Part shown: positions 7,440-54,943 of the stretch, one piece after another | Numbering within the stretch: position 1 is the stretch's first letter | How the letters are laid out: each line of letters opens with the position of its first letter | Assembly: GCA_024663395.1 (NCBI GenBank) | Contig: JANFAH010000004.1 | Location: 3,286,001 to 3,350,000 of the forward strand | DNA from: Pisolithus tinctorius | Taxonomy: Eukaryota > Basidiomycota > Agaricomycetes > Boletales > Pisolithaceae | Length of the DNA: 64,000 bases | Direction of reading: 5' to 3' | Program-made: the position numbers and the translations under genes | Notes under the pieces: generated by a model | The model's input: the letters and a program-made list of their open reading frames with translations, nothing else | The model's database searches: none | Told to the model about the DNA's origin: nothing

Positions 7440-8660
7440 CTATTCTTCCATCACTTGTCCTCTGCCACCTTCCTGTTCTTCTCCACCTTCCTGCTCCCCT
7501 TCGACTTCTTCCTCGTTATCCCCCTCTGCACCTTCGTCCGCTTCCTCTCGCTGGTCCTCCGCCGCCTCCGACTGCGGCCTCTTCCATCCTCCTCCTGCGC
7601 GTTCGAACTCGGCCACTCTGGCCTCACGCGCATCCTCCCTTCTCCTCATCTCCGCCCACTCTGCCCAGGTGTGGTACAGCGCCCACTCATCGGCGGTCCA
7701 CTCTGCAGCCTCCGCCATCCGCTCCGCTGCCTCTGCCATCCTCTCGAAGGCCAGCGCAGCAGTCTCGTGCGCTTCGGCCTGCCTCTCCATGGCTTGCAGC
7801 TGTCGCTCGCGCTCCCACTCCGCCCACCGCGTGTGGACTCCCGCACCCGAGGGACCCTCGAGTGGGGTCGCAGGCTCGTCTTCTTCTCCGCCTGCCTCCC
7901 GCTCGTCATCCGCCTCTTCCGTCTCCGCCGCTCTCTCCTTCCCCTTCCCTTGCGGTCTCTTCTTCTTCTCCCCACGTGAGCTCCCTGTCCCTGCTCTTTT
8001 CCACAATGGCCCTGCCACCGTGTCCTCCCTCGTCCAGCTACATACCTTCTTCTTCTTGTGACAGGGCAGGCAAGCCCTGGTCTTGCCTTGCCCTGGCTCA
8101 CATTGCCCTGCTGTCAAGCTCGCTACACAGCGAGTACAGGGGGGCCGCCTGGTCGTGGTAACCACCACAGAGGTCCCAGGGACCCTCTGGGCGGTGTTGA
8201 CATCATACACCGCACCGCATAATCTAAGAAATTTAGACTGCGAGTCAGCTCCGCCTGACTCACAGCACTCCGCCACTCACCTTTGTGCGGCCTCATCCTG
8301 CCTGGCCTGAGCCCTCTCTTCAGAGGCCCTTTGCCTCTGCCTTTCTGCCTCCTCCTCTGCTGCCTTCTTCCTTCGAGCCTCCTCTTCCTCCTCTGCTCTC
8401 TTCCTCTGCTCTGCCTCCAACCTCTCCTCCTCCGCCTTCCGCCTCTTGGCCTCCTCATGCTTGGCCTTGCGCTCCGCTTCGCGTTCTCTCTCTCTCTGCT
8501 TGGTCTCCTCTCGTCAGCGTGCCTTCTCCGTGGACTTCTCCCGCTCGGTGTCGGTGGAGTCGTCGGTGAGGACGACCAGTTCTTCATCTGCGACTTGAGA
8601 GTAGTCGCGGACGTGGCCGGGGGTTGGCTGGGGGGTGTTGCTCTGGCGCTGGGAAGGCAT
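7440..8660 (-). pseudogene. E1 convergent spliced gene: coiled coil, zinc cluster, acidic tail
   Basis: It lies opposite to pol, between pol and the 3' LTR. I infer two exons: 8660-8281 (ATG at 8660) and 8223-7440, joined across a 57-nt intron (8224-8280, GTGAGT...CTTAG, phase 2). The joined frame is exactly 388 codons including the stop. Exon 1 encodes a highly charged Glu/Arg/Lys/Ala heptad-like coiled coil. Exon 2 begins with a cysteine cluster, C-X2-C-X8-C-X9-C-X2-C-X6-C, followed by a basic KKKK segment, Ala/Glu-rich helices and a very acidic Glu-rich C-terminus. One in-frame TGA at codon 49 (8516-8514) inactivates this copy. E2 carries the same gene intact with the same intron phase. 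The cluster resembles fungal Zn(II)2Cys6 DNA-binding domains. The function is unknown. Confidence 0.78.
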
Positions 8661-33800: not shown

Positions 33801-34680
33801 GCCACATTGAATGTGTCAAGTATTCACCTATGTCACCTTCCCTCTCACCAATGTCACTATGGTACAGTCCACAGTTGCCCTCCTTCAGTCCCACATCTCT
33901 GTGGTACTTACCAACTAGTCCACCCTTTTAGCCCCTTGTCTGCTAACCATGACACAGCAAAGCAGCTGCATCACTGACAAATGCCACCCACCCTTGATCG
34001 AATTCACCAACCAGCCTGTGGTATTGATTCATCCACATCACTGCCTTCCTTCTCATTGATGTCTCAAACAGTACATCCACAATCACCTTCCTCTGTCCCA
34101 CACCTCCACAGTATTCACCAACTAGTCTATCCATTGAGCCCCACATCTCCTAACTACAACAGCAGCAGAGTGACTACATCACCAACATACTCCCCAACAT
34201 CACCCACAACCAGTCTGTGGTATTCACCTATGTCACCTTCCCTCTCACCAATGTCACTGCAGTACAGTCCACAACTGCTTTCCTTCAGTCCAATATCTCT
34301 GCAATACTCACCAACTAGTCCATCCTTTAGTCCTGCCTCTCCTAGATGTAAGTCATGTTTATCTGTCAGCAAACCAGTCAATAACTTCACAAGATCCACC
34401 TAGCACAACTTTTCATTTGCTTTACCAACCATCCCTTTCTCATGCTATCCTCACTGCAGCTTGTAAGTAATTTATCTCGCTTGCATAGTTACATTACTCA
34501 CAGCTCTGCAACCCCTGCACAAATGTCACTCCTGTCTTCAAAATACTTGCCCATGTCACCAGTGTCACCCCCTCCACTCAACCAAATATTCTCCACAGCT
34601 CCTGCCTATTGCAAGTGTAGCCTCTGTCCCCCCTGCATACAACTCAACATCTCCACGATGGCCACCTTCTAGCCCTACCC
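33801..34680 (+). pseudogene. RNA polymerase II CTD-like heptad repeats, left palindrome arm
   Basis: Translations in changing frames give repeated YSPxSPx heptads, for example [22 protein letters not shown] and [13 protein letters not shown] around 33815-34350, and KYLPMSPVSPPP near 34550. YSPTSPS is the RPB1 C-terminal-domain consensus. No polymerase body precedes it, and stops and frame changes break it. It is a decayed fragment of an RPB1-like CTD or of another protein with CTD-type repeats. Confidence 0.6.
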
Positions 34681-34838
34681 ATGTGATACAATGTATCATC
34701 AAAAATGAAGATATTCATGGTTTGCATCACCTGCCATTTGGTAAACAAATGTTGGCTCTGGAACAGGTCATCAACACTGCTGATGGATGAGGTGCCATGG
34801 TTGACTTTAAGGGTGAAACCTAATTAAACTTGCATGTA

Positions 34839-36412
34839 CAGTGAGGGACAAAAGTGTTGCAATGTTTGTGAGGTGTGACTTGCTGCTGATGTAGCTTGGG
34901 CTATTCTGCACAGATAATCATGATACCTATACCATTGGAAGGGGGTGACTCTAAGCTTTCCAGAGCACTAAGGTTCAGTCCAAATAAAGCAATACAAGCT
35001 GAGATACACCCTATTCTTTCCAAAAAGTGCATTGCAACACTTTTGTCCCTGACTGGTGAAATAGTGAAAAGTGACCTTTTGATGGGATTAAGGGCATGAA
35101 GGATGGGAAAATATGATTACATAATAAACCACATGGTCTTCCAGATGATTTGTCAGCATGTAAACAATGACAAACATTGGACTTGTACCATTAACCCTCC
35201 CTCTTTTACCACAACTCATGAAATCATCTCTCTAGCTCACATGGTCATTTTCTCAAGGAATTCTTATCAAATACTGGTGGCCACCACAGTGCCATCAGTA
35301 TAACATGCTCTCAGAACCATCAGTCCCTTAAAAAACCTGCTGTCAGTCATTCCATGGACTGTTTCCCTCCCCATGCCTGATGTGTCCTGGGACTAATCAG
35401 TACTTGGAAGGCTGAAAATGTTATGGAGGTCAATCTTGCACTTCAGCACATGGTGGACAAACCAATCCCCTCTCAACCAATGCATTTCTGGCACAGGGAC
35501 ACTGGTATGGAAGTTAGGGCAAGACAAAATCCTCTTTATCCCTGGGTGTCATCAAGAGGATATGCTACTGAACTGCCATGGAGCAGAATCCTGTGCTTCC
35601 ATCTGGCCCTGAATATTGCCTTTGGTCACATGTGACTGAATAACCCTTCCCCAGTCATCCCAATTTCAGGTCAGAGCAAGATCTAGTGAACCCTCTTAGG
35701 GCACTTTGAGCACAAGGAGGTTTTGTCTCCCCCCCAACCTCCATACCAGTGTCCCTGTGCCAGAAATGCATTGGTTGAGAGGGGATTGGTTTGTCCACCA
35801 TGTGCTGAAGTGCAAGATTGACCTCCATAACATTTTCAGCCTTCCAAGTACTGATTAGTCCCAGGACACATCAGGCATGGGGAGGGAAACAGTCCATGGA
35901 ATGACTGACAGCAGGTTTTTTAAGGGACTGATGGTTCTGAGAGCATGTTATACTGATGGCACTGTGGTGGCCACCAGTATTTGATAAGAATTCCTTGAGA
36001 AAATGACCATGTGAGCTAGAGAGATGATTTCATGAGTTGTGGTAAAAGAGGGAGGGTTAATGGTACAAGTCCAATGTTTGTCATTGTTTACATGCTGACA
36101 AATCATCTGGAAGACCATGTGGTTTATTATGTAATCATATTTTCCCATCCTTCATGCCCTTAATCCCATCAAAAGGTCACTTTTCACTATTTCACCAGTC
36201 AGGGACAAAAGTGTTGCAATGCACTTTTTGGAAAGAATAGGGTGTATCTCAGCTTGTATTGCTTTATTTGGACTGAACCTTAGTGCTCTGGAAAGCTTAG
36301 AGTCACCCCCTTCCAATGGTATAGGTATCATGATTATCTGTGCAGAATAGCCCAAGCTACATCAGCAGCAAGTCACACCTCACAAACATTGCAACACTTT
36401 TGTCCCTCACTG
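34839..36412. mobile_element. Fold-back DNA element, copy 2, complete
   Basis: The element is 1574 bp, begins CAGTGAGGGACAAAAGTGTT, ends with its reverse complement, and is flanked by TA on both sides (34837-34838 and 36413-36414). The same terminal motif recurs inverted at about 35030-35058 and 36193-36221, so each arm starts with a 220-bp segment that looks like a small MITE. The central spacer lies in the opposite orientation to that of copy 1. There is no coding capacity for a transposase. Confidence 0.9.
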
Positions 36413-36569
36413 TACATGCAAGTTTAATTAGGTTTCACCCTTAAAGTCAACCATGGCACCTCATCCATCAGCAGTGTTGATGACCTGTTCCAGAGCCAAC
36501 ATTTGTTTACCAAATGGCAGGTGATGCAAACCATGAATATCTTCATTTTGATGATACATTGTATCACAT

Positions 36570-37449
36570 GGGTAGGGCTAGAAGGTGGCCATCGTGGAGA
36601 TGTTGAGTTGTATGCAGGGGGGACAGAGGCTACACTTGCAATAGGCAGGAGCTGTGGAGAATATTTGGTTGAGTGGAGGGGGTGACACTGGTGACATGGG
36701 CAAGTATTTTGAAGACAGGAGTGACATTTGTGCAGGGGTTGCAGAGCTGTGAGTAATGTAACTATGCAAGCGAGATAAATTACTTACAAGCTGCAGTGAG
36801 GATAGCATGAGAAAGGGATGGTTGGTAAAGCAAATGAAAAGTTGTGCTAGGTGGATCTTGTGAAGTTATTGACTGGTTTGCTGACAGATAAACATGACTT
36901 ACATCTAGGAGAGGCAGGACTAAAGGATGGACTAGTTGGTGAGTATTGCAGAGATATTGGACTGAAGGAAAGCAGTTGTGGACTGTACTGCAGTGACATT
37001 GGTGAGAGGGAAGGTGACATAGGTGAATACCACAGACTGGTTGTGGGTGATGTTGGGGAGTATGTTGGTGATGTAGTCACTCTGCTGCTGTTGTAGTTAG
37101 GAGATGTGGGGCTCAATGGATAGACTAGTTGGTGAATACTGTGGAGGTGTGGGACAGAGGAAGGTGATTGTGGATGTACTGTTTGAGACATCAATGAGAA
37201 GGAAGGCAGTGATGTGGATGAATCAATACCACAGGCTGGTTGGTGAATTCGATCAAGGGTGGGTGGCATTTGTCAGTGATGCAGCTGCTTTGCTGTGTCA
37301 TGGTTAGCAGACAAGGGGCTAAAAGGGTGGACTAGTTGGTAAGTACCACAGAGATGTGGGACTGAAGGAGGGCAACTGTGGACTGTACCATAGTGACATT
37401 GGTGAGAGGGAAGGTGACATAGGTGAATACTTGACACATTCAATGTGGC
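36570..37449 (-). pseudogene. RNA polymerase II CTD-like heptad repeats, right palindrome arm
   Basis: This is the inverted copy of 33801-34680, with identical translations on the minus strand at 37269-36847 and 36808-36578. It is part of the palindrome, not an independent gene. Confidence 0.6.
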
Positions 37450-39101: not shown

Positions 39102-39630
39102 TGTCATAGTCATGCCTCGACCCCGGCCGGACTCGGCCTCGCACTCACTCAGTCCGGCCTCGGCCTCGCCTGTCCCGCATCTCCAGTTGGTCTAGCGCGG
39201 TAGACACTGCTTTGCAGTGTCTGTCATTTCGGTTAAGTCCTGTCCCCGGTCTTGTCCCCGGTCCACTCTGTCCCGGTCTCCGTTACCTTAGTCATACGTT
39301 ACTAAACCTGTCTTACCAATCCTCTTAGCAATCCTTGCGAGACCGGCATTACCGGTCTCCGTACTATAGTTACTTCTGGTATATAAACTCGTAGATACTC
39401 GGCCTGTACTCCTTAGTCTGAAATCAACTAAGTCACCTCTGATAACTCCGTCTCGGCCTCGGACTCGGACTGAGACCCACGCAAGGGAATAGCGCTGTAT
39501 CCTCAGTCGCTAAGTCCAAACAGTCCAAACATCTGCATCCTCGACTTCACCCCTGACCCCGACCCCTCGGCTTCGCGCCCGCTTCGGTCTCCGGTCCGGA
39601 CTCAAACCCGGACACATCCCGTACTTAACA
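39102..39630 (+). repeat. 5' LTR of E2
   Basis: The LTR is 529 bp. TATATAAA lies at 39380-39387, and the inferred mRNA start AGTCTGAAAT at 39415-39424 is complementary to the primer site. Six CCGG tetramers occur in the first 240 bases. Confidence 0.96.
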
Positions 39631-39632
39631 GT

Positions 39633-39642
39633 ATTTCAGACT
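39633..39642 (+). promoter_or_regulatory. E2 self-complementary primer binding site
   Basis: ATTTCAGACT, two bases after the LTR, is the exact reverse complement of AGTCTGAAAT at 39415-39424, 35 nt downstream of the TATA box. The sequence differs from that of E1, but the pairing, the spacing and the 2-nt gap are the same. Confidence 0.8.
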
Positions 39643-39668
39643 CGCCACTTGTGTGGGTCTAAACCATC

Positions 39669-41063
39669 ATGGCAACCAAGACTCGATTCCAACCTCCCCG
39701 TGGCCGCTCTGCCACCAATCCCGACTCCGCTTCAGCCAGTGGGGCTCGCCGCGAAACAGCACTAGCTGCGTTGGGCACCACTAGGCGCTCCCCAGACCCC
39801 GTCAGTCCTTTCAGGGGCTTCTCAGCCCGCACATCTAACACCCCCACCCCACGTCGTCCCACTGCTCCCATCCCCGAGGGTGACCCCGGCGATGATGGGC
39901 CGGGCGACGATGATGACAACAACCCAGACGATGATGACCCCGGTGATAATGGTCCTGGTGATGATAACCCGGAAGATAATGATCCGGAAGACGATCCGGA
40001 CTTCCCAGATCCGGACACCGAACCCGCGGTCGCGGTCTTCGACAGTCTCGCGAAGGCCATCAAGCTGTTGGCTCGCAATACCCATACTAGTCCTGAGTCC
40101 TCAAGCAGGACCAAGTTACGCGAGCCCGACACCTTTGACGGCACCGACCCAAAGAAACTTCGCGCTTTCTTCATCCAGTGCGAGCTTAATTTCCAAGACC
40201 GACCTCGGGCTTTCAGGACCGACCGCGCCAAAGTCATCTTCGCGCAATCCTACCTCAAAGGTATGGCTCTCGAATGGTTCGAGCCGGACTTGCTCGGGCT
40301 CGACGACCCCGATGACCGGCCTCTTTGGATGGACTCCTGGAGGGAGTTCGTCCTAGAGCTGCAAACCACCTTCGGCCCCCACGACCCGGTCGCTGACGCC
40401 GAGAGTCAGCTTGACCATCTACATATGAAGGAAAGCCAGCGCATTAATAAGTACGTAGTTGACTTTAATCGGCTTGCTTCGCAAGTCCGAGGCTACGGTG
40501 ACGGTGCGCTGCGCCATCATTTCTATTCCGGTCTCCCAGACTGAATTAAGGACGAAGTCTGTCGAGTTGGTAAACCGCGGACTCTACACGAGCTCCGTCA
40601 TCTCGCCCAGGAGATAGATGCGCGCTATTGGGAGCACAAGGAAGAAGTCCAGCAGGCGAGTAGGCACCAAGGCTCGTCCAACTCCAGCAACAACAAGTCC
40701 GGAGGTTCCGGCAATAACAGCCAGCCCAAGACCGGTCAGGAGAAAGCCAAGACCGGCAACAACAACAATAACAACAACAACTCCGGTTCCACCCAGTCCA
40801 AGCCGGCTTCATCGAAGCCGGGCAATAGCAATAACAGTAATTCGTCCAAGCCCGAGCCTAGCAAACTCGGCAAAGATGGAAAGCTTACCCCGGAAGAACG
40901 CAAGCATCGCCTAGACGGAAACCTCTGCATGTTCTGCGGAGGGTCCGGTCATTTTGCTGACAAATGCCCTAAGAAAGCCGGAAAAGCCAAAGCTCGTGCT
41001 GCGGCTACCACCGAAGCCGCACCGGCCTCGGGCTCGGGTTCTACCCCCGAGACAAAAAAATAG
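39669..41063 (+). pseudogene. gag: E2 Gag with one in-frame TGA
   Basis: The frame is 464 codons if TGA at 40542-40544 is read through. E1 has CGC (Arg) at the same place (SGLPDRIKDE). The N-terminal 110 residues are acidic Asp/Pro/Gly repeats. The capsid-type domain with PDTFDGTDPKKLRAFF covers about residues 150-300. A Gln/Asn/Ser-rich linker and a zinc knuckle CMFCGGSGHFADKC near residue 420 follow. The stop is TAG at 41061-41063, directly after seven A residues. Confidence 0.9.
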
Positions 41064-41118
41064 GTAGCAGCTCCCAGGACTCCGCACAATCTGGGAGCTG
41101 CGTTGACTCCGGTTGTGC
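41054..41118 (+). promoter_or_regulatory. E2 gag-pol -1 frameshift signal (slippery heptamer plus pseudoknot)
   Basis: A_AAA_AAA lies at 41054-41060 in the gag frame before TAG. After a 6-nt spacer there is a perfect 11-bp stem (41067-41077 with 41091-41101) and a 13-nt loop, whose GCACAA (41084-41089) pairs with TTGTGC at 41113-41118. The pol frame is open from the slip site onward. Stem and loop pairings are kept relative to E1 although the bases differ. Confidence 0.87.
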
Positions 41119-44100
41119 AAACTTGGAGGCTCGTCTCAACACGTCCGCTCTTTCCAGTCCGAATTCTTTGACCCCGTATGTCACTATAGAAAACCCAGAA
41201 ATACCTCGGCTTCGTACTTTAGTGGACTCCGGTTCCACCCATTGTTTTATAGATAATCAGTTTGTTAATCAACACTCGTTTACCCCTTACTCGGTCTCAC
41301 CAATCCGACTCCGGCTCTTCGATGGAACGTCCACCTTCACTATAACCCAGGCAGTAGATGTCAATATCCGCTTTGCGTCCGGCGATGTCACCCCGGTAAC
41401 CCTGTATCTAGCCCCGTTGGATTCTGAGTGTAGAATAGTCCTCGGACACGACTGGCTCACCTGCTACAATCCGTTGATTGATTGGGTATTGGGCAGTCTA
41501 ACATTCCGGACTCCTGCACAAGGAATGCCAACCCCGTCGACACCCCCTGTAAGCCCGGTCTCCACCGGCCTTCCTGACCCCGGTCCTAGTGACCAACCCG
41601 GCCTCGCGCCATCTGTACCGGTCTCCGACTCCCCGGCTCGCACCCCTCTGAAAGCCCCTCTTGTTTCCCTCATCAATGCAGCCGCCTTTGTGCGCGCCTG
41701 CAAACTAGAAGGGTCCGTCCAATTCCAACTTCAGCTCCGCCCCTCGGACTCAGCTCAAGCCCGATCGGCCTCGGCTTCCTCTCCTCCGGCCTTACCCAAT
41801 GTCCCGGAAGAGTATCACGACTTCGCTGATGTATTCAGCAAGGCCAAGGCCTCGGCACTCCCGCCTCACCGGGAGTACGACCTGAAAATAGAGCTTGAAG
41901 AAGGAACTACCCCGCCTCTCGGCACTATCTACTCGCTGTCCCCGGTTGAGCTGCAAGCTCTCCGGACTTTCATCGACGAAAACCTCACTACCGGATTCAT
42001 TCGGCCTACTTCCTCCCCATATGCTGCACCAGTCCTCTTTGTCAAAAAGAAGGACGGCTCCCTCCGGCTTTGCGTAGACTTCCGCGGCCTCAACAAAATC
42101 ACTAAGAAGGACCGATACCCGCTACCGCTCATCTCCGACCTCCTGGATTCACCAAGCCGAGCGAAGATCTATACAAAGATTGATCTTTGGCATGCCTACC
42201 ATCTCGTCCGGATTGCCCCGGGCGATGAATGGAAGACCGCATTCCGGACTCGGTATGGATCTTATGAGTGGTTAGTGATGCCCTTCAGCCTCACCAATGC
42301 CCCGGCCGCCTTCCAACGCTTCGTCAACACTATCTTTGCGGATATGTTGGATGTCTGCGTAGTTGTCTACCTAGATGACATCCTGATCTACTCCGGAGAT
42401 AAGGAGTCTCACAAGCAGCATGTCCGAGAAGTCCTCCGCTGGCTTCGGCTTCACGGCCTTTATGCGAAGCCGGAGAAATGCGAGTTCCACTCAGACTCGG
42501 TCGAATACCTCGGATTCCACCTCTCCCCTGCCGGCCTCACGATGTCGAAGGAAAAAGTCCAGACCATCTGCGATTGGCCTGAGCCTTGCAAGGTCAAAGA
42601 CATTCAGTCTTTCCTCGGCTTCGCAAACTTCTATCGCCGGTTCATTTTTAATTACTCAGACATCGTCGTACCACTGACTCGGCTTACCCGCAAGGGAGCT
42701 CCTTGGAACTTCTCCGAGGAGTGCCGCCGGTCATTTAATAACCTCAAGGCCGCCTTCACTACTGCGCCGGTCTTAACTCACTTCATCCCCGGGGTCCCCA
42801 TCACCGTCGAGACCGATGCTTCGGACTATGCCATCGCCGGCATCCTTTCCATTACCTGCGGCGACGGCCAAATACATCCGGTCGCATTCTACTCCCGGAC
42901 TCTGACGGCCCTGGAATTGAATTATGACACCCATGATAAGGAATTGCTTGCAATTTTTGAAGCATTCCGGACCTGGCGTCACTACCTTGAGGGCTCGGCC
43001 TCACCGGTCGACGTTGTTACTGACCACAAGAACCTCGAGTACTTCTCCACCTCTAAAGTACTCACCCGCCGCCAAGCTTGCTGGTCAGAGTTCCTGTCTC
43101 AGTTCAACATGATCATTAGATTCAGGCCCGGTAAGCTCGGGGCTAAGCCCGACGCCCTGACTAGACGATGGGACGTCTACCCCAAAGAGGGGGATAGCGG
43201 CTATGCCCGAGTGAACCCGCAAAACCTGAGACCGGTCTTCACCCAAGAGCAACTAGCGGTCTCCCTTCGCGCAACCTACCTCGAGTACCCGGTCTTACGA
43301 GCAGTCGCACTGATGGATGTAGAGAAACTTCATAATGACATCCTGACCGCACTGCCGGACGACCCGGTCTCACAAATCCGCCTGTCCGACATGTCTGATC
43401 CCCGGTGGTCAGTAGATGACACCAGCTTCCTTCGTCTTGATGGAAGGATCTACGTGCCGGACTCAAATGATCTCCGTCTTAGGGTCTTGCGGCTTAAGCA
43501 TGACCACCCCTCTATCCAGCCACTTTGGCCAGAACCGAACCCTAGAACTCATTCAGCGTGAATACACCTGGCCCGGCCTCAGGACCTTCATCAAGGACTA
43601 TGTCCGGTCTTGCACGGCCTGCGCTCGGGCTAAGGTTCCCTGCCATCGGCCTTACGGCCTCCTCAAGCAACTCCTGGTGCCGGAGAAGCCGTGGAACTCC
43701 ATCTCTATGGATTTCATCGAGCAGCTTCCGGCCTCAACCGGCTTCACGGCCATCCTCGTAGTAGTTGACCGGCTTTCCAAGCAGGCCATATTCATCCCAC
43801 CCACGACACCATAACAGCCCCGAACTCGCCAAACTATTCCTACTCCATGTCTTTTCGAAGCACGGAGTGCCGGCCCATGTAACCTCAGACCGAGGCTCGG
43901 AGTTCGTCTCTCACTTCTTCCGGTCACTCGGTAAGGCCTTAGACATGCGCTTACACTTCACCTCGGGCTACCACCCCGAGGGTGATGGCCAGACCGAAAG
44001 GACCAACCAGACACTGGAACAGTACCTCCGAGTCTACTGTAACTACCAACAGGACAACTGGGCCGACCTATTACCCTTGGCCGAGTTCGCTTATAATAAT

Positions 44101-44778
44101 GCCCCTAGCGCTACTACCGGTGTTTCACCCTTCTTCGCTAATAAGGGCTATCACCCTAACATCTCGGTATACCCGGAGCACGACCTCACCTCCGCTCGGG
44201 CTCGTGACTATGCAGTCGACTTAGACTCACTGCATCAATACCTACAGGAAGAAATGACCTTAGCACAGCAGCGCTATCAAGGACCGGCCGATGCTAAACG
44301 CATGCCGGCTCCGGACTTCAAGGTCGGTGACCAGGTATATGTGAAAGCCAAATACTTCCGGTCTACTCAGCCTTCCAAGAAGCTCTTGGAGAAGAATCTT
44401 GGACCGTATCCGGTCATAGCTCAGGCCGGTACCCACTCCTTCACACTGCGCCTGCCGGACTCAATGCGCGCGGTGCACCCGGTTTCCATGTTTCCCAACT
44501 CGAGCCGGCCATTCCTAACACCATCCCGAAACCGGACTCAACCACCACCTCCACCAGTCGAAGTCGATGGTGATCTAGAGTTCGAGGTAGCAGAAATCCT
44601 CGACTCTAAGGTCGACCGGCGTCGCCGGTGTTGGCTTCAGTACTTAGTCCGGTGGACCGGCTACGAGGGGACTGATGAAGAAACTACTTGGGTACTCGCT
44701 ACAGAGCTTGACAACGCTTCTGAACTCGTCCAAGAATTTCACTCCAGCTATCCCGGTAAACCCGGACCATATCAATGA
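41054..44778 (+). pseudogene. pol: E2 Pol polyprotein with two frameshifts
   Basis: It is in the -1 frame relative to gag. Protease DSGSTHCF is near 41227, RT YLDD at 42368-42379, and RNase H DASDYAIAG near 42815. The integrase keeps all three acidic residues (SMDFIEQL; SDRGSEF with Asp at 43888-43890; DGQTERTNQ with Glu at 43996-43998). The chromodomain is at about 44575-44750 (EVAEILDSKV...LVRWTGY...TTWVL). One base appears gained near 43508 and another change lies near 43800-43820, moving the reading through three frames. A compensated shift alters the segment around 44485-44520. RT VMPFSLTN has Ser where E1 has Gly. Confidence 0.92.
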
Positions 44779-44978
44779 GAACCGGTCTCAACCGGCCTCA
44801 GTTTCTTTTCTGTTTTCTATCGGTATCTAGTTTTTTCCTTTAATCTCATACTTACCTTGTTTTCCCCTTCTTGTCTCTTCTACCTTACTGTATAACACCG
44901 GACACCGAGCACCGGACTCTGGACACCGGACACGTCACATTCGCAGAGGAGGGTAACAAAAGCACTACGCTATAAACA
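44779..44978. other. E2 spacer between convergent genes
   Basis: This T-rich sequence after pol lies between the ends of pol and the convergent gene and presumably holds both 3' ends. No specific element is recognised. Confidence 0.4.
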
Positions 44979-46012
44979 CTACTCGGTCATATCCTCATCT
45001 TCCCCTCCGGCCTCCTCCCCCTCGTCCTCGCCATGGTTCTTCAACCAGTCGGCTTCCTCGCGCAACTCGTCGGAGTCGAGCTCAGATGAGCCCGAGTCCG
45101 AGGGGGACACCGCCATTCCGAAGCCATAGGATTCGTCAAGTATCGACTCGAGGGCATCGGCAATGTGGCCCGAGTTCTCGACGGCGGTCTCGTGCAGCTC
45201 GAAGAGGCTGGCCAAGTTGTTGGCAATCAGCCCCGCGGCCTCGATCAATCGCTCGAGCTTGTCCACGCCAGCCTCCCTCGGCCTACTCCCGCCGGCCTCA
45301 GACTCGTCGAGGTCCAAGATTTCGGTCGGCCTCGTACTCGTCTTCGCCCGTTTCTGATTGCTGGGCCCGGCTTCGGCGTTCTCCTCGTCGACCTTCCTCT
45401 TCTTGCCCTTGACAGCCTTGGGACCGGCCTCGGCGTCCTTTCCATCCCCGGGCCAGCGACACTTGCCTTTCGATTGGTTGCATCGCACGCAGGCGACGCG
45501 TTTCTTGTTACCGTCCACGACAAATTCGCAGACGGTGTGAGCTCGGGCACAGCGGGTACAGCTAAAAAGGTTGTCAAAGAGGATACACACAAGGTTGAGA
45601 AAACCACTCACCCGGGGTCCATGACCACTTTCTTCACCTCCCCCCCGGTCTCATCACCCTTACCGGCCTCGGCCTTGCGCCTACGTTCGGCCTCCCGCCT
45701 CTCCTCCTCTTCGCGCGCTCTCCTCTCCTCGGCCTCCCGCACTGCCTTCTCGGCCTCGGCCTTCTCCTTCTCGGCCCTCTCGGCCTCAATCCGCTCCCTT
45801 TCCGCTCTCTCGGCCTCCAGTCGCGCCTGCTCTTCCCGCCGGGCTTGCTCTGCCGCCTTTCGCTGCTTCCTTTCCTTCGACTTGGCCTTCATCACTTCCT
45901 CCTCGTCGTCGGTGTCATATCGAATGGCGTCATCCGACACCTGGGTCCAGTCGACGACGACCCGGCCTTCGTCGTTCTTGTCTGTCGCGGTGATCGGCCT
46001 TGAGTCAGACAT
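44979..46012 (-). CDS. E2 convergent spliced gene: coiled coil, Zn(II)2Cys6-like cluster, acidic tail (intact)
   Basis: I infer exon 1 as 46012-45612 and exon 2 as 45561-44979, around a 50-nt intron (45562-45611, GTGAGT...TTTAG, phase 2). Together they make exactly 328 codons with no internal stop. Exon 1 begins MSDSRPIT, then an acidic DTDDEEE and about 75 residues of Glu/Arg/Ala-rich coiled coil. Exon 2 opens with C-X2-C-X6-C-X12-C-X2-C-X6-C, which fits the Zn(II)2Cys6 consensus of fungal transcription factors. Basic KGKKRK and KRAKTS segments (nuclear-localisation-like), a helical LERLIEAAGLIANNL region and an acidic tail with EEAGGEDEDM follow. The start lies 139 bp from the 3' LTR, which could supply its promoter. 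I know of no named family. Confidence 0.82.
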
Positions 46013-46137
46013 GATGGTTAGGATGAGAAAGAAAGACGCAAAGGGCTTAGCGGGCCACAAGTATCATTTTTTTCGAACTCAGCCAACTTTCGGACTCAGC
46101 CCACCACTCTCGCAGGGGTCTCATGGGTTCGACCCCT

Positions 46138-46150
46138 AAGAGGGGGATAC
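46138..46150 (+). promoter_or_regulatory. E2 polypurine tract
   Basis: AAGAGGGGGATAC immediately precedes the 3' LTR at 46151, the position expected for plus-strand priming. Confidence 0.75.
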
Positions 46151-46679
46151 TGTCATAGTCATGCCTCGACCCCGGCCGGACTTGGCCTCGCACTCACTCA
46201 GTCCGGCCTCGGCCTCGCCTGTCCCGCATCTCCAGTTGGTCTAGCGCGGGTAGACACTGCTTTGCAGTGTCTGTCATTTCGGTTAAGTCCTGTCCCCGGT
46301 CTTGTCCCCGGTCCACTCTGTCCTGGTCTCCGTTACCTTAGTCATACGTTACTAAACCTGTCTTACCAATCCTCTTAGCAATCCTTGCGAGACCGGCATT
46401 ACCGGTCTCCGTACTATAGTTACTTCTGGTATATAAACTCGTAGATACTCGGCCTGTACTCCTTAGTCTGAAATCAACTAAGTCACCTCTGATAACTCCG
46501 TCTCGGCCTCGGACTCGGACTGAGACCCACGCAAGGGAATAGTGCTGTATCCTCAGTCGCTAAGTCCAAACAGTCCAAACATCTGCATCCTCGACTTCAC
46601 CCCTGACCCCGACCCCTCGGCTTCGCGCCCGCTTCGGTCTCCGGTCCGGACTCAACCCGGACACATCCCATACTTAACA
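46151..46679 (+). repeat. 3' LTR of E2
   Basis: The LTR is 529 bp, near-identical to 39102-39630, and is followed by the target duplication AATGG. Confidence 0.96.
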
Positions 46680-48926: not shown

Positions 48927-51900
48927 TCAGAGGTTGTGGACACGCTTGTACTCCCTGAGAGCCTCTGGGGCATTTATAAGGTTTTCCTTGCCTTCCCAAC
49001 TGTTCTGGGAATGCAGGTAAGCGAGCCACTTGACAAGGTAGAGGTATTTTTGCTGTGGGGTTACACTGGGCTCTTTTGACGATGACTTGACCTTGTGCGC
49101 ACATTTGTGCTTAAGTATAGCCTCAACTTCCCATTCGTTCTCATCTCCTACCAACTCAGGAGGAAGTGGGGGTTGAGCTGGGCCATACTCGTGCATTTCG
49201 ACAAAAGGGGTGAGTTTTGATGCATGGAACACGGGGTGTATTCGCCAGCTAGGGGGTAGCTGGAGCTTGTATGTGACTGGGCCGACCCATCCAGAAATTA
49301 CAAATGGCCATGTCATCTGGGCACAAGCTTCTTCGAGGGAACCTCCCTTTTCAGGTCGGAAGTGTCTAGCCACACCTTATCTCCCATGGCAAACTCCGTA
49401 TAGGTCCCTTTCGATCTTGATCTCATCAACTCCTGTGCTTCTTTATGAGCGATTATTGTGGCGTCTCGGTTGGCAGCCAGGTGCTCGAGTCGGTCTCTCG
49501 CTAGGGACTCCTGCGGGGGTTGTTCCATAGGGTAAGGGGGTGGAATCAAATCCATACATGAGCGAGTATGGCGTCTGGCTGTGAGACAAGTGTACACACG
49601 AGTTATGTGCCATTTGAGTGTCCGGGAGTTTGGTGTGCCAGTTGTGAGGACCCGTATCTGTGTACATGTGCAGGTAGGTGCCGACCTCCTGGTTCACACA
49701 TTCTGCCTTGCCATTGGTCTGTGGATGGTAGGCGGTGGAGGCCTTCAGTTCAATTCTGAGGGACCGGTAAAGGTCTCTGGTAAAGGTGGAGACAAACTGA
49801 GGTCCTTGGTCCGATATGACAGCTTCTGGGACACCCCAATGAGGTAAACGTAGGCATGGTAGAGGTCTGTGATACCAACACTGTCTATGGTCTTAGCGGT
49901 CAGTAGGAAGAATGCGCCTTTAGTTAGCCCCTGATCTACGAATGGTGAGGATGGAATCAATATTTTCCTCCTGACAGGGGTAGGTCGGTGACCAAGTCCA
50001 TTGAGATCTGTTTGAAGGGGAAGGGGTTCTTTGCTATGTCATGCGGGGTGATCGGCAGGGTCGTCAGATGCGTGTTGACCTTGTTTGCCTGGCAGACCAG
50101 GCATCCTTTGCAGTAGTTGTGGATGGACTGGTACAATTCCAGGGCCACCACACATACTTGTTCATTTTCTTCATCATTGCCTTTACTCCAGGGTGTCTGA
50201 ACATGGGGAGGTCATGGTACTGCAGAGGACGTCTTGGCAAACTGGCTCTGGCATGAAGATCCTCCTTCCTTTCCTTCTGACTCTGTCAGACCTTCTGTTG
50301 TTTCAGGGGCTGAGAGGGACACAGATGCTTTCTTTACCTCCTGGTACAAGTCAGCATTTAGCTGGAAAATGTGTCCTTTACCTTTCTGAACCTTTGGTGT
50401 TTCCTCAGATGGGTGTTCAGCAGGTTTCGGTTCCCCAAAAGAGACCTTTCGGACAGGCTTCGGAGCCTCTGAGGTCTGGGAATTGTCCTGTTGATTTGAT
50501 GAGGGAAACAATGGAGGGTCTCACCCCCCCCTCAAGCCAAACGGCCTTTGGAAGTAGGGTAGAGACAGTACTTGGCTTGGCATTGAAGTCCGAGCGGCAG
50601 GAAAGGGTGTCGGTGGTGGAGTTTTTCATCCCCACTATGTGGATGAACAGGAGCAGGTACTCCTGAAGTGTGGCTTGCCACCTGGCCTGTCAAGCAGTCA
50701 ACCTCTGGGGTTGTGCATAATAGGTGATATTTTGGTGGTCGGTGTAGACCTTAGTCAGTTCTGGCGGCGAAAGCAAATAGGGGCGCCATTGCTTGAGGGC
50801 GCGCATTACTGCTAGCATCTCCAGATCATAGACCTGGTAATTTTGTTTGGCGCCAGTAAGCGACTGGGACATATACGCACAGGGGTGAAGTGTTCCTGAG
50901 TTGTCGGCCTGTGACAGGACAGCACTGGTGCCAGAGCCTTGAGGCATCGGTGTGTAAGACGAATGGCTTCCAGAGGTCCGGAAGCCATAGTACCCGGTTT
51001 GGATGAGAGGGCCTTCTTCAGATCTTTGAAGGCCAAAGTCTGTTTGGGGCCCCAGGTCCATTTGGCGTTTTTCTTGGACAGATCATGCAGCAGTCGGGTG
51101 GTCTGCGAGAAGCCGGAGATGAACTGCCTATAGAAGTTGCAGAAGCAAGGAAGGAATTAAGGGTTGTCGGAGCAGGCCAAGTTTTGATGGCTTCGATTTT
51201 GACCTCTGATGGTTCGTACTGACCCTGTCGGATCACAAACCCTAAAAACTCTATCTCTTCGGCTTCGAAGGTGCACTTCTTGAGCTTGAGGCAGAGGTGT
51301 TCCTTTGAGGCGACTTGCAGAAACCGTCAAACTGCAGCGTGCAGTCCTTCCTTGGTTTTTGAGTGTATTGTGACATCATCCATGAAGATGACAGCCTTCC
51401 TCTCATTCTTGAGCTCTCCGAAGGTGTGATCCATGTATCTCTGGAAAGTCGGTGGTGAGTTGCACTGCCCAAAGAACATTACCGTCGGTTCGAAGAGTCC
51501 TCTCGGGGTAATGAAAGCCCCTTTCCACTCGTCACCCTCCTTCACCCTTACGTTGGTGAATCCCCAGTGGACATCGAACTTGGCGAAGTATCATGAGTTG
51601 GCGAGCTCGTCCAGGAGGGATTTTACGTCGGGAAGGGGGTACAAGTCGATGACAGTATGAGAGTTTAGGTAGTGGTAGTCTTGGATGAGTCTTCTTTTAC
51701 TGTCCTTTTTTCCTACGAAGAACACGGGAGCTGCCTGTGAAGACTTCGAGGGGTGTATCTTTCCACATCTAAGGTTTTCATCGATGAACTTGTTGAGAGT
51801 CTTGAGTTCGTCGAGGGACAGCAGATAGATGGCTCCTTTCTTCGGCTGGAAGCTGGGCTTCAGGCGGATTTTGTGGTCGAGGAAACCCCTATGGGGTGGA

Positions 51901-53593: not shown

Positions 53594-54943
53594 TCAAAAA
53601 TCCAGTTGACCTTTCGGTCCACCATCATCTGTGGGTTCATCATTCTCCCCACAGTAGTGGTCAACTGGCTCTGAATCTCCCTCCTCTTCGGAATTCTTGT
53701 CGAGCTCCTTGAGCATTGCCAGGATGCGAGTGTGGAACTTTTGGGCCAAGGAAGACCTACTGTTTGTTGTGGATGAGGGACATTTGGATTTCATATGTCC
53801 TGTCCTACTGCACCCATAACAGGTAGGAGCTTCACTCTGTGATCGGACCTTGGACTTCCAATCAACATCCATGGCGTAGGGGTCTCGGTATGGAAGCTTT
53901 GGAGATGAAGAGGATTTTGATCCGTGCAATCCTTGTTCTTGCTTCCAGAGATAGGAGCAGTCTTGGAAGGTTGCCTTTCTGGAAAAGACCTTGAGTGTGG
54001 CCATTGCTGCACATGTGGCTGTCGCTTGCCAGATCCAATCCTCTACAGTGTCGGGCTTGGGCCCCGACATGAGGATCCACTTGTTAACCTCCTTGTTGAG
54101 TCCCTTTCCAAAAAACACTGCAGCAGTTGTGTCGCGGGTGGAAATTTGGGCTTTGTTGAGGCAGTTGCAGAAATCTGCAATATACTCGTCAAGGGAGCAG
54201 TCCCCTTGACGGATGGCCGAGAGGTAGATTAATGCAGTAGCTTTGGCATCTCCTACTTGGAAGGTTTCTTTTAATTTCACGACAAACTCATCCCAACCAT
54301 CGAAGATCTTGAGATCCCCAAGAGCAGTTGTGTTCTCATTGACGTAGGCTTCGGCGAAGGCATGGGCCAAGCCACTTCCCATATAGGAGAGGGTAAATGC
54401 GATCTTGGACTGATCCTCGTAGTAGACATGGTCGTTGGTCACAAGGTAGAGTTTGACACTGCTTAACCAGGCCGAAAAGTCCTGGTGCGCTCCATTGTAA
54501 GAGAAGGGTTTATTCAGGCCAATTTCTTTCAGTCCTCCTCCCTTAGAGTCATGTTCCTTTCCTTTCTCCTCGGAACCTTGGGAGGGGCCTTTAGGCCTTA
54601 CCACATCTCTGCCAAAGAGCGACTTGTAGAATTTGGCAGCCATTTTGGGGGTGACCCTAGTCTGGCTGGCAAAGGGGTCCTGGATGTTTAGTCCAGAGGC
54701 TTGGTGGGCAAGTTCTTCTGCCATTTGGTTGGCTGAAGTAGTAGGTAGGTAGATATCTGTGGATGACGAAGGTGTGGGGTCTGCTGGTCTGGCTGTCCCA
54801 ATCTGAGTTTCGATGTCCAGGCTTGAAGGCCTCAGTTCGTGATAAGAGGTAAAGTTTACTGGTGAGGTCGATTCTGCCGCTTGCCCAAGTTGGGGTCTTA
54901 CTGGCGGGTCTTCAAGACCTATACGAGGGTTTGGTGTTTGCAC
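53594..54943 (-). CDS. gag: E3 Gag
   Basis: This intact 449-residue frame has an N-terminal Pro/Thr-rich region, then a Lys/Gly-rich segment. A capsid-type Gag domain covers residues 145-330 (KPFSYNGAHQDFSAWLSSVK...WDEFVVKLKETF). A zinc knuckle CYGCSRTGHMKSKC (C-X2-C-X4-H-X4-C) lies near residue 385, followed by an acidic tail. The start chosen is the first Met after the leader. The TGA stop at 53596-53594 is followed in the same frame by protease sequence, so readthrough or a lost sense codon may once have joined them. Confidence 0.9.
   Translation of the reverse strand: MQTPNPRIGLEDPPVRPQLGQAAESTSPVNFTSYHELRPSSLDIETQIGTARPADPTPSSSTDIYLPTTSANQMAEELAHQASGLNIQDPFASQTRVTPKMAAKFYKSLFGRDVVRPKGPSQGSEEKGKEHDSKGGGLKEIGLNKPFSYNGAHQDFSAWLSSVKLYLVTNDHVYYEDQSKIAFTLSYMGSGLAHAFAEAYVNENTTALGDLKIFDGWDEFVVKLKETFQVGDAKATALIYLSAIRQGDCSLDEYIADFCNCLNKAQISTRDTTAAVFFGKGLNKEVNKWILMSGPKPDTVEDWIWQATATCAAMATLKVFSRKATFQDCSYLWKQEQGLHGSKSSSSPKLPYRDPYAMDVDWKSKVRSQSEAPTCYGCSRTGHMKSKCPSSTTNSRSSLAQKFHTRILAMLKELDKNSEEEGDSEPVDHYCGENDEPTDDGGPKGQLDF

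Follow-up and report, generated by a model that had tools for sequence, protein, structure and literature searches.

The 64,000-nt stretch of the Pisolithus tinctorius genome analysed here (contig JANFAH010000004.1, positions 3,286,001 to 3,350,000; hereafter the window, in whose numbering all coordinates are given) contains a Ty3/gypsy chromovirus, E2, at 39102-46679, which carries an additional gene between the chromodomain end of pol and the 3' long terminal repeat (LTR), on the strand opposite to gag-pol (44979-46012, minus strand). The two LTRs of E2 differ at 4 of 528 sites and AATGG flanks the element on both sides as a target-site duplication. The gene order is that of chromoviruses, with gag followed by protease (PR), reverse transcriptase (RT), RNase H (RH), integrase (IN) and chromodomain; PF03732, PF08284, PF00078, PF17919 and PF00385 exceed their Pfam cutoffs, and the rve match reaches 23.8 bits versus a cutoff of 32.6, the frame being broken there. 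An earlier note on this DNA, made from the sequence alone, had described gag and pol of E2 as broken and the antisense gene as an intact two-exon gene, and both descriptions hold: the gag frame has 293 codons, compared with approximately 460 in 9 of 14 copies, the pol frame at 41123-43561 is broken near its end, and the antisense gene, starting with an ATG at 46012, consists of a 401-nt exon 1, a 50-nt intron and a 583-nt exon 2, which together encode 327 amino acids (Table 1).

Table 1. Features of E2 and of the antisense gene of a second element, E1, in the window
Feature	Position	Strand	Remarks
5' LTR of E2	39102..39630	+	direct repeat with 3' LTR; end read from sequence
gag of E2, shortened in window copy	39669..40544	+	PF03732, 41.6 bits
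pol of E2: protease, RT, RNase H, integrase start	41123..43561	+	PF00078, PF17919, PF08284
pol of E2: remaining integrase and chromodomain	43765..44778	+	PF00385, 43 bits; PF24626, 39.5 bits; rve partial
200-bp spacer between convergent stops of pol and antisense gene, E2	44779..44978	.	median divergence 0.20 versus 0.06-0.08 in pol
Antisense exon 2, E2	44979..45561	-	zinc cluster, basic stretch, helix, acidic tail, stop
Six-cysteine cluster, E2	45459..45560	-	C-x2-C-x6-C-x12-C-x2-C-x6-C; pN/pS 0.161
Antisense intron, E2	45562..45611	-	50 nt, phase 2, GTGAGT...TTTTTAG
Antisense exon 1, E2	45612..46012	-	D(W/Y)(T/S)Q motif; long helix, predicted to form a coiled coil
Leader, antisense ATG to 3' LTR, E2	46013..46150	-	median divergence 0.065 versus 0.177 in exon 1
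3' LTR of E2	46151..46679	+	4 differences in 528 sites to 5' LTR; AATGG
E1 antisense exon 2	7440..8223	-	cysteine spacing 2-8-9-2-6
E1 antisense intron	8224..8280	-	57 nt, phase 2; GTGAGT...AG in 8/8 E1 copies, 55-58 nt
E1 antisense exon 1	8281..8660	-	premature stop at codon 49 in window copy

Splicing of the antisense gene was assessed in the window copy and 20 other E2 copies of the 92.5-Mb genome, drawn from the copies that most resemble the window in exon 2 (all copy numbers are lower bounds, the best 150 of 512, 570 and 566 candidates having been scored for E2, E1 and E3, a third element, respectively). Without splicing, the frame meets a stop at the donor. The ATG, the GTGAGT donor and the AG acceptor are present in all 21 copies and the phase 2 of the intron is kept throughout, as is a branch-site-like YTRAC upstream of the acceptor (aligned introns, counted by eye). 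Exon 1 varies from 371 to 422 nt, yet is 2 mod 3 in 21/21 copies and stays in frame, whereas the intron lengths (49, 50, 51 or 52 nt) do not. In the public E2-type gene models, the intron has been removed in 20 of 20 aligned, such that the sequence VVMD leads directly into the first cysteine. The spliced frame is intact in 13 copies and interrupted by premature stops in the other eight. Among the in-frame stops of E2 and E1 copies, TGA seems to predominate, which is the outcome expected of C-to-T decay at CGA, and methylation-linked decay of these copies is possible.

The same frame carries the signature of purifying selection. Across 17 E2 copies (136 pairs; four truncated or rearranged copies were omitted from the 21), exon 1 has a ratio of nonsynonymous to synonymous differences (pN/pS) of 0.224 (codon bootstrap 0.168-0.302) and exon 2 one of 0.166 (0.125-0.219). 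Eight disjoint pairs give nearly the same values (0.220 and 0.167), and the ratio is the lowest among the six frames. For comparison, the values in the same copies are 0.121 in gag, 0.122 from protease to integrase and 0.098 in the integrase tail and chromodomain, and the two remaining antisense frames over the same bases give 1.05-1.63. One sense frame is also low (0.279 over exon 2 and 0.394 over exon 1), which reflects the third positions it has in common with the antisense gene, of which it is a shadow. The earlier note had stressed the intactness of the window copy, which is not in itself evidence of selection: the E2 insertion is young, and among the 14 copies with two LTR matches gag is open in nine, pol in six and the shorter antisense gene is intact in 10, so that one intact copy proves little. 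Its broader claim of selection across diverged elements is borne out, the ratios being far from 1 (0.17-0.22 in E2; 0.206 for exon 1 and 0.191 for exon 2 in eight E1 copies).

The location of the gene is also conserved. In the first 50 of 150 matches to the E2 chromodomain, compared by eye with the best 150 of 512 candidates for the E2 gene, the antisense gene adjoins the chromodomain in opposite orientation in 46; one of the other four lies at a contig edge and three are without a listed match to the E2 gene. The gene has both traits of the antisense open reading frames (aORFs) classed as aORF-3R, namely, a conserved protein and, in the majority of copies, a location downstream of pol on the antisense strand. 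As judged from sequence comparison, it is a protein-coding gene with a conserved intron, located on the strand opposite to gag-pol and under purifying selection. All 32 copies examined (21 of E2, eight of E1 and three of E3) retain the intron and no intronless version was found among them, which would be expected if copying uses the sense RNA, wherein an antisense intron is not spliceable. The leader that separates the ATG from the 3' LTR is likely the 5' untranslated or promoter side of the gene. It diverges less (0.065) than the LTRs and contains a T-loop-like GGTTCGACCCC, but a tRNA was not found in it.

Homologous genes occupy the same place in E1 and E3. In all three full copies of E1, the antisense gene follows pol; it is intact in four of eight copies, and the length of exon 1 is 2 mod 3 in each of the eight. 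The earlier note had stated that intron phase and domain order match between E1 and E2. Phase 2 and the domain order are indeed shared, but the E1 intron precedes the first cysteine by approximately 29 codons and that of E2 lies directly before it, so that a common intron position was rejected, and the E1 copy of the window is itself interrupted at codon 49. The identity between E1 and E2 amounts to 49% in gag, 67% in RT, 75% in integrase-chromodomain and 28% over 283 aa in the antisense protein, and hhalign aligns the two antisense proteins over the N-terminal motif, the helix and the zinc cluster (97.2%, E 2.9e-11). E3, recovered through the E2 chromodomain search (best 150 of 1249 candidates scored), shares with E2 86% identity in the integrase tail and chromodomain and 32% in exon 2 (E 2e-29). 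Its antisense gene has the same location, is intact in 3/3 copies (334, 328 and 335 aa) and has the intron at the position and phase of E2, with donor and acceptor kept in all three; pN/pS in exon 2 is 0.18-0.27. These copies (L045, L046 and L047) reside on genome contigs C15, C49 and C4. A pol frame of 1257 aa was seen in 10 of the 150 chromodomain matches, all 13 E3-type matches chosen by eye carry the antisense zinc-cluster gene, and the list of matches to the E3 gene closes with E2-type sequences at 33%-42% identity. The alignments indicate that the antisense gene is homologous across the three element families.

The encoded proteins share a layout of an N-terminal D(W/Y)(T/S)Q motif (E1 and E2), a helix, a six-cysteine cluster, a basic stretch, a second helix and an acidic tail. 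The long coiled coil and acidic tail proposed in the earlier note agree with a predicted N-terminal helix at residues 41-90 of the public protein P0002 (block pLDDT 82-96) and with the net charge of the last 45 residues (-13 to -19 in each of the seven family proteins measured); the second helix is predicted at residues 211-261 of P0002 (block pLDDT 77-93). Basic runs (KKRK, KKKR), the acidic tails and the absence of any hydrophobic 19-mer above 1.04 in the seven proteins point to a nuclear protein; on the last observation, an envelope-like protein was rejected. Of 178 public matches, the 120 listed are all hypothetical proteins of P. tinctorius without a Pfam domain. Some bear the UniRef name 'Zn(2)-C6 fungal-ty...', and no link to retrotransposons appears in that listing.

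The cluster proposed in the earlier note, C-x2-C-x6-C-x5-12-C-x2-C-x6-8-C, is present in E2 and E3 (spacing 2-6-12-2-6), whereas E1 departs from it (2-8-9-2-6). It recurs in other copies: among the 120 E2-type proteins listed, the general six-cysteine pattern is matched by 111, 62 of which have exactly these six cysteines and none extra, and among 67 E1-type models it is matched by 19, the other 48 being partial, broken or changed there. Like the fungal Zn(II)2Cys6 domain of Gal4 (PF00172, Zn_clus), the E2 and E3 clusters comprise six cysteines in two C-x2-C-x6-C halves, each of which matches the profile. Unlike in Gal4-type proteins, the halves are crossed: in native cut-out pieces, the best-scoring stretch aligns the first half with profile positions 16-38 or the second half with positions 1-15, that is, not in the order of PF00172. 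The full proteins fall below the cutoff of 21 bits (11.6 for the window protein and 11.2 for P0001), and Zn_clus matches with E <= 1 were obtained for 6 of 20 proteins, the best of them at E 0.065; hence, the cluster is not recognizable as the canonical domain that the earlier note had taken it for.

Exchange of the two halves raised the scores. In an initial trial, the E2 piece went from 18.5 to 22.8 bits and the E1 piece from 11.7 to 14.6, with 16.7 and 16.0 for doubled halves. Of the 12 pieces prepared for each family, 10 of E2 and five of E1 were scanned, and the swapped version outscored the native one in 10/10 and 5/5, respectively. For E2, nine native pieces matched and one reached 21 bits, whereas all 10 swapped pieces matched in one stretch and seven reached 21. 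For E1, four native pieces matched, at 14.0 or lower, and five swapped ones at 13.9-17.9, none passing 21. With an E2-type join, all three E3 pieces improved (20.7 to 22.9, 21.4 to 24.6 and 16.1 to 19.3), two swapped versus one native piece passing 21. The Gal4 control behaved in the opposite manner, with 49.4 bits in one stretch for the native and 37.6 in two for the swapped sequence. A half-swapped variant would, by these scores, fit better than the canonical Zn(II)2Cys6 domain; the protein is not established as a Zn(II)2Cys6 transcription factor.

The antisense gene and the element backbone seem to have separate histories. In 16 E2 copies, the median divergence from the window is 0.06-0.08 in the LTR, gag, pol and leader. 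Step changes at the stop codon of pol and at the ATG of the antisense gene bound a more divergent segment, which comprises the spacer (0.20), exon 2 (0.148) and exon 1 (0.177); transversions at four-fold sites amount to 0.088-0.123 in the antisense gene versus 0.046-0.057 in gag-pol. Within the backbone, pairwise distances in 14 copies (three of 17, with partial or misaligned LTRs, were dropped) are correlated, at 0.63 for LTR-gag, 0.71 for gag-RT, 0.76 for RT-IN and 0.57 for RT-chromodomain, and the two exons correlate at 0.40. Between gene and backbone, the values are 0.13 for RT-exon 2, 0.05 for LTR-exon 2 and 0.17 for RT-exon 1 (p 0.044), to be read with the restricted range that results from selection of the copies by exon 2. 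All 17 copies give 0.13 for RT-exon 2, 0.24 for RT-exon 1 (p 0.003), 0.23 for chromodomain-exon 2 (p 0.03) and 0.75 for gag-RT, the LTR correlations of this set being spoiled by the same three copies. Co-evolution of the gene with the LTR type within E2 was rejected, as there is no correlation. Five copies with an identical chromodomain protein, selected by the chromodomain rather than by exon 2, differ by 3%-6% in chromodomain DNA, 4.3%-9.1% in integrase and 13.4%-24.3% in exon 2. Because divergent antisense genes occur in copies whose chromodomain protein is identical, the gene behaves like a module that is exchanged on its own, and these distances indicate that its descent is largely decoupled from that of the LTR-gag-pol backbone. 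The simplest reading would be that diverged versions of the gene came to sit on closer backbones by recombination between lineages.

On balance, we consider it probable that the gene is an element-encoded accessory gene of basidiomycete chromoviruses, exchanged as a cassette and specifying a spliced, nuclear zinc-protein regulator that acts in trans. Its transcription would start from a promoter in the leader or the 3' LTR and run towards pol, and its intron would persist through retrotransposition, since the genomic RNA corresponds to the opposite strand and offers no substrate for splicing. The protein may dimerise through the long helix, enter the nucleus by way of the basic stretches that follow the zinc cluster and bind nucleic acid or chromatin through the Zn2Cys6-like cluster, with the halves in reverse of the usual order, thereby regulating the expression, silencing or integration of its family; lineages could swap the cassette through recombination during reverse transcription. 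A bolder version, put forward tentatively, holds that the mobile cassette encodes a circularly permuted Zn2Cys6 regulator, a counterpart of the HBZ type, divergent versions of which are traded while a common LTR-gag-pol backbone is kept, the diversity being long maintained as at a recognition locus. Parts of this account call for caution. The half-swap result is a lead rather than proof, as short pieces favour the scores and the two halves inherently resemble each other, and an earlier attempt on E3 with a different join, in which three of four pieces had one altered residue, was mixed (20.7 to 19.3, 16.3 to 18.3). As to modularity, a higher substitution rate in the antisense gene is an alternative to recombination as the source of its divergence.

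Among the rivals, a cytoplasmic or particle-associated accessory protein, which would bind RNA through its zinc cluster and basic parts and aid packaging or reverse transcription without regulating genes, is unlikely, although more likely than the others. The combination of zinc and a basic stretch is Gag-like chemistry, purifying selection is nearly as strong as on gag, and the gene does not covary with the LTRs; however, separate expression from a spliced antisense transcript would fall outside the gag-pol programme, the tails are acidic, the net charge is -14 to -28 and the halves of the cluster match a DNA-binding profile. The resemblance to fungal Zn2Cys6 proteins and the host-type intron might suggest a recently captured, decaying host transcription factor gene, which we regard as improbable: the gene is under purifying selection, the 120 listed of 178 matches are hypothetical P. 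tinctorius proteins that lack a Pfam domain, and its presence at the same place in three families, of which E1 and E2 share 49% identity in gag and 75% in IN-chromodomain, implies that it is old. A distant host origin is possible. It is very doubtful that the transcript rather than the protein matters, forming double-stranded RNA with the genomic RNA for copy-number control. The convergent overlap with the genomic RNA would permit this, and antisense RNA control has been discussed for plant elements (PMC7264820), but the selection acts at the codon level, the two alternative antisense frames having pN/pS values of 1.05-1.63, and the length differences of exon 1 are multiples of three; antisense RNA as the sole explanation is contradicted, although it could act additionally. 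That the gene is a chance frame opposite a GC-rich 324-aa sense ORF (45165-46139), open over exon 1 in all 17 copies, is refuted by the pN/pS of 1.54 and the 26 stops of that ORF over exon 2 in these copies, the sense frame over exon 1 also scoring 0.394 versus 0.224 for the antisense one.

Elsewhere, the window contains two element remnants on the minus strand, one at 48927-49373 with an ORF that resembles, by eye, the chromodomain end of pol, and one at 53594-54943 with a Retrotrans_gag ORF (PF03732, 26.9 bits). A long inverted repeat at 33801-37449, with arms of 904 and 818 nt that are 100% complementary, may be either a true palindrome or an artefact of the assembly; each arm contains a 140-aa ORF similar to the CTD, the heptad tail of Rpb1 of RNA polymerase II (best phmmer E against PDB 1.3e-15). 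A second palindrome, at 1-1418, has 456-nt arms at 100% and nearly the same ORF on both strands (122 and 128 aa), the first of which has no Pfam match.

Antisense extra genes after pol are already known from plants and Botrytis. In Boty/BcGypsy1 of Botrytis cinerea, brtn lies between pol and the 3' LTR (PMC7264820; Zhao et al., 2011, as cited in PMC8365987), and this fungal LTR retrotransposon is like E2 in the location of its antisense gene. Unlike the E2 host, its host is an ascomycete, and the accounts of brtn in these sources, on whose description the comparison rests, mention neither splicing nor a zinc cluster. The plant aORFs, including gene23 of Grande, that of RIRE2 and ORF4/TRP28 of Retand (PMC7264820; PMC11963269), have the same place and orientation and are retained in most copies; the Grande protein is nuclear and TRP28 is predicted to bind DNA (PMC7264820; PMC11963269). 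They belong to different protein families, for which the portions of these sources available to us describe no zinc cluster or spliced antisense intron, the words 'intron' and 'zinc finger' being absent from the passages of PMC11963269. HBZ of HTLV-1 is likewise an antisense, spliced gene, with transcripts that start in the 3' LTR and a product that regulates transcription (PMC1459196), but it is a bZIP protein of a retrovirus, and the likeness to the E2 gene would be one of layout only. E2 itself resembles other Ty3/gypsy chromoviruses in its LTRs, gag, PR-RT-RH-IN and chromodomain, and differs from them by the extra antisense gene. A literature search found no report of this antisense protein family, its splicing or its modular exchange. 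Accordingly, what appears new is the spliced antisense gene, its zinc cluster, its presence in three families in a basidiomycete and the modular exchange.

What the additional antisense genes of LTR retrotransposons do has been described as an open question in both plants and fungi (PMC7264820). In P. tinctorius, copies are numerous, the domain can be tested and a single sequenced mushroom provides three homologous families; the intron, which is spliceable only from the antisense transcript, serves as a built-in strand marker. Furthermore, many Pisolithus 'hypothetical proteins', some of them named Zn(2)-C6, would be genes of retrotransposons rather than host transcription factors.
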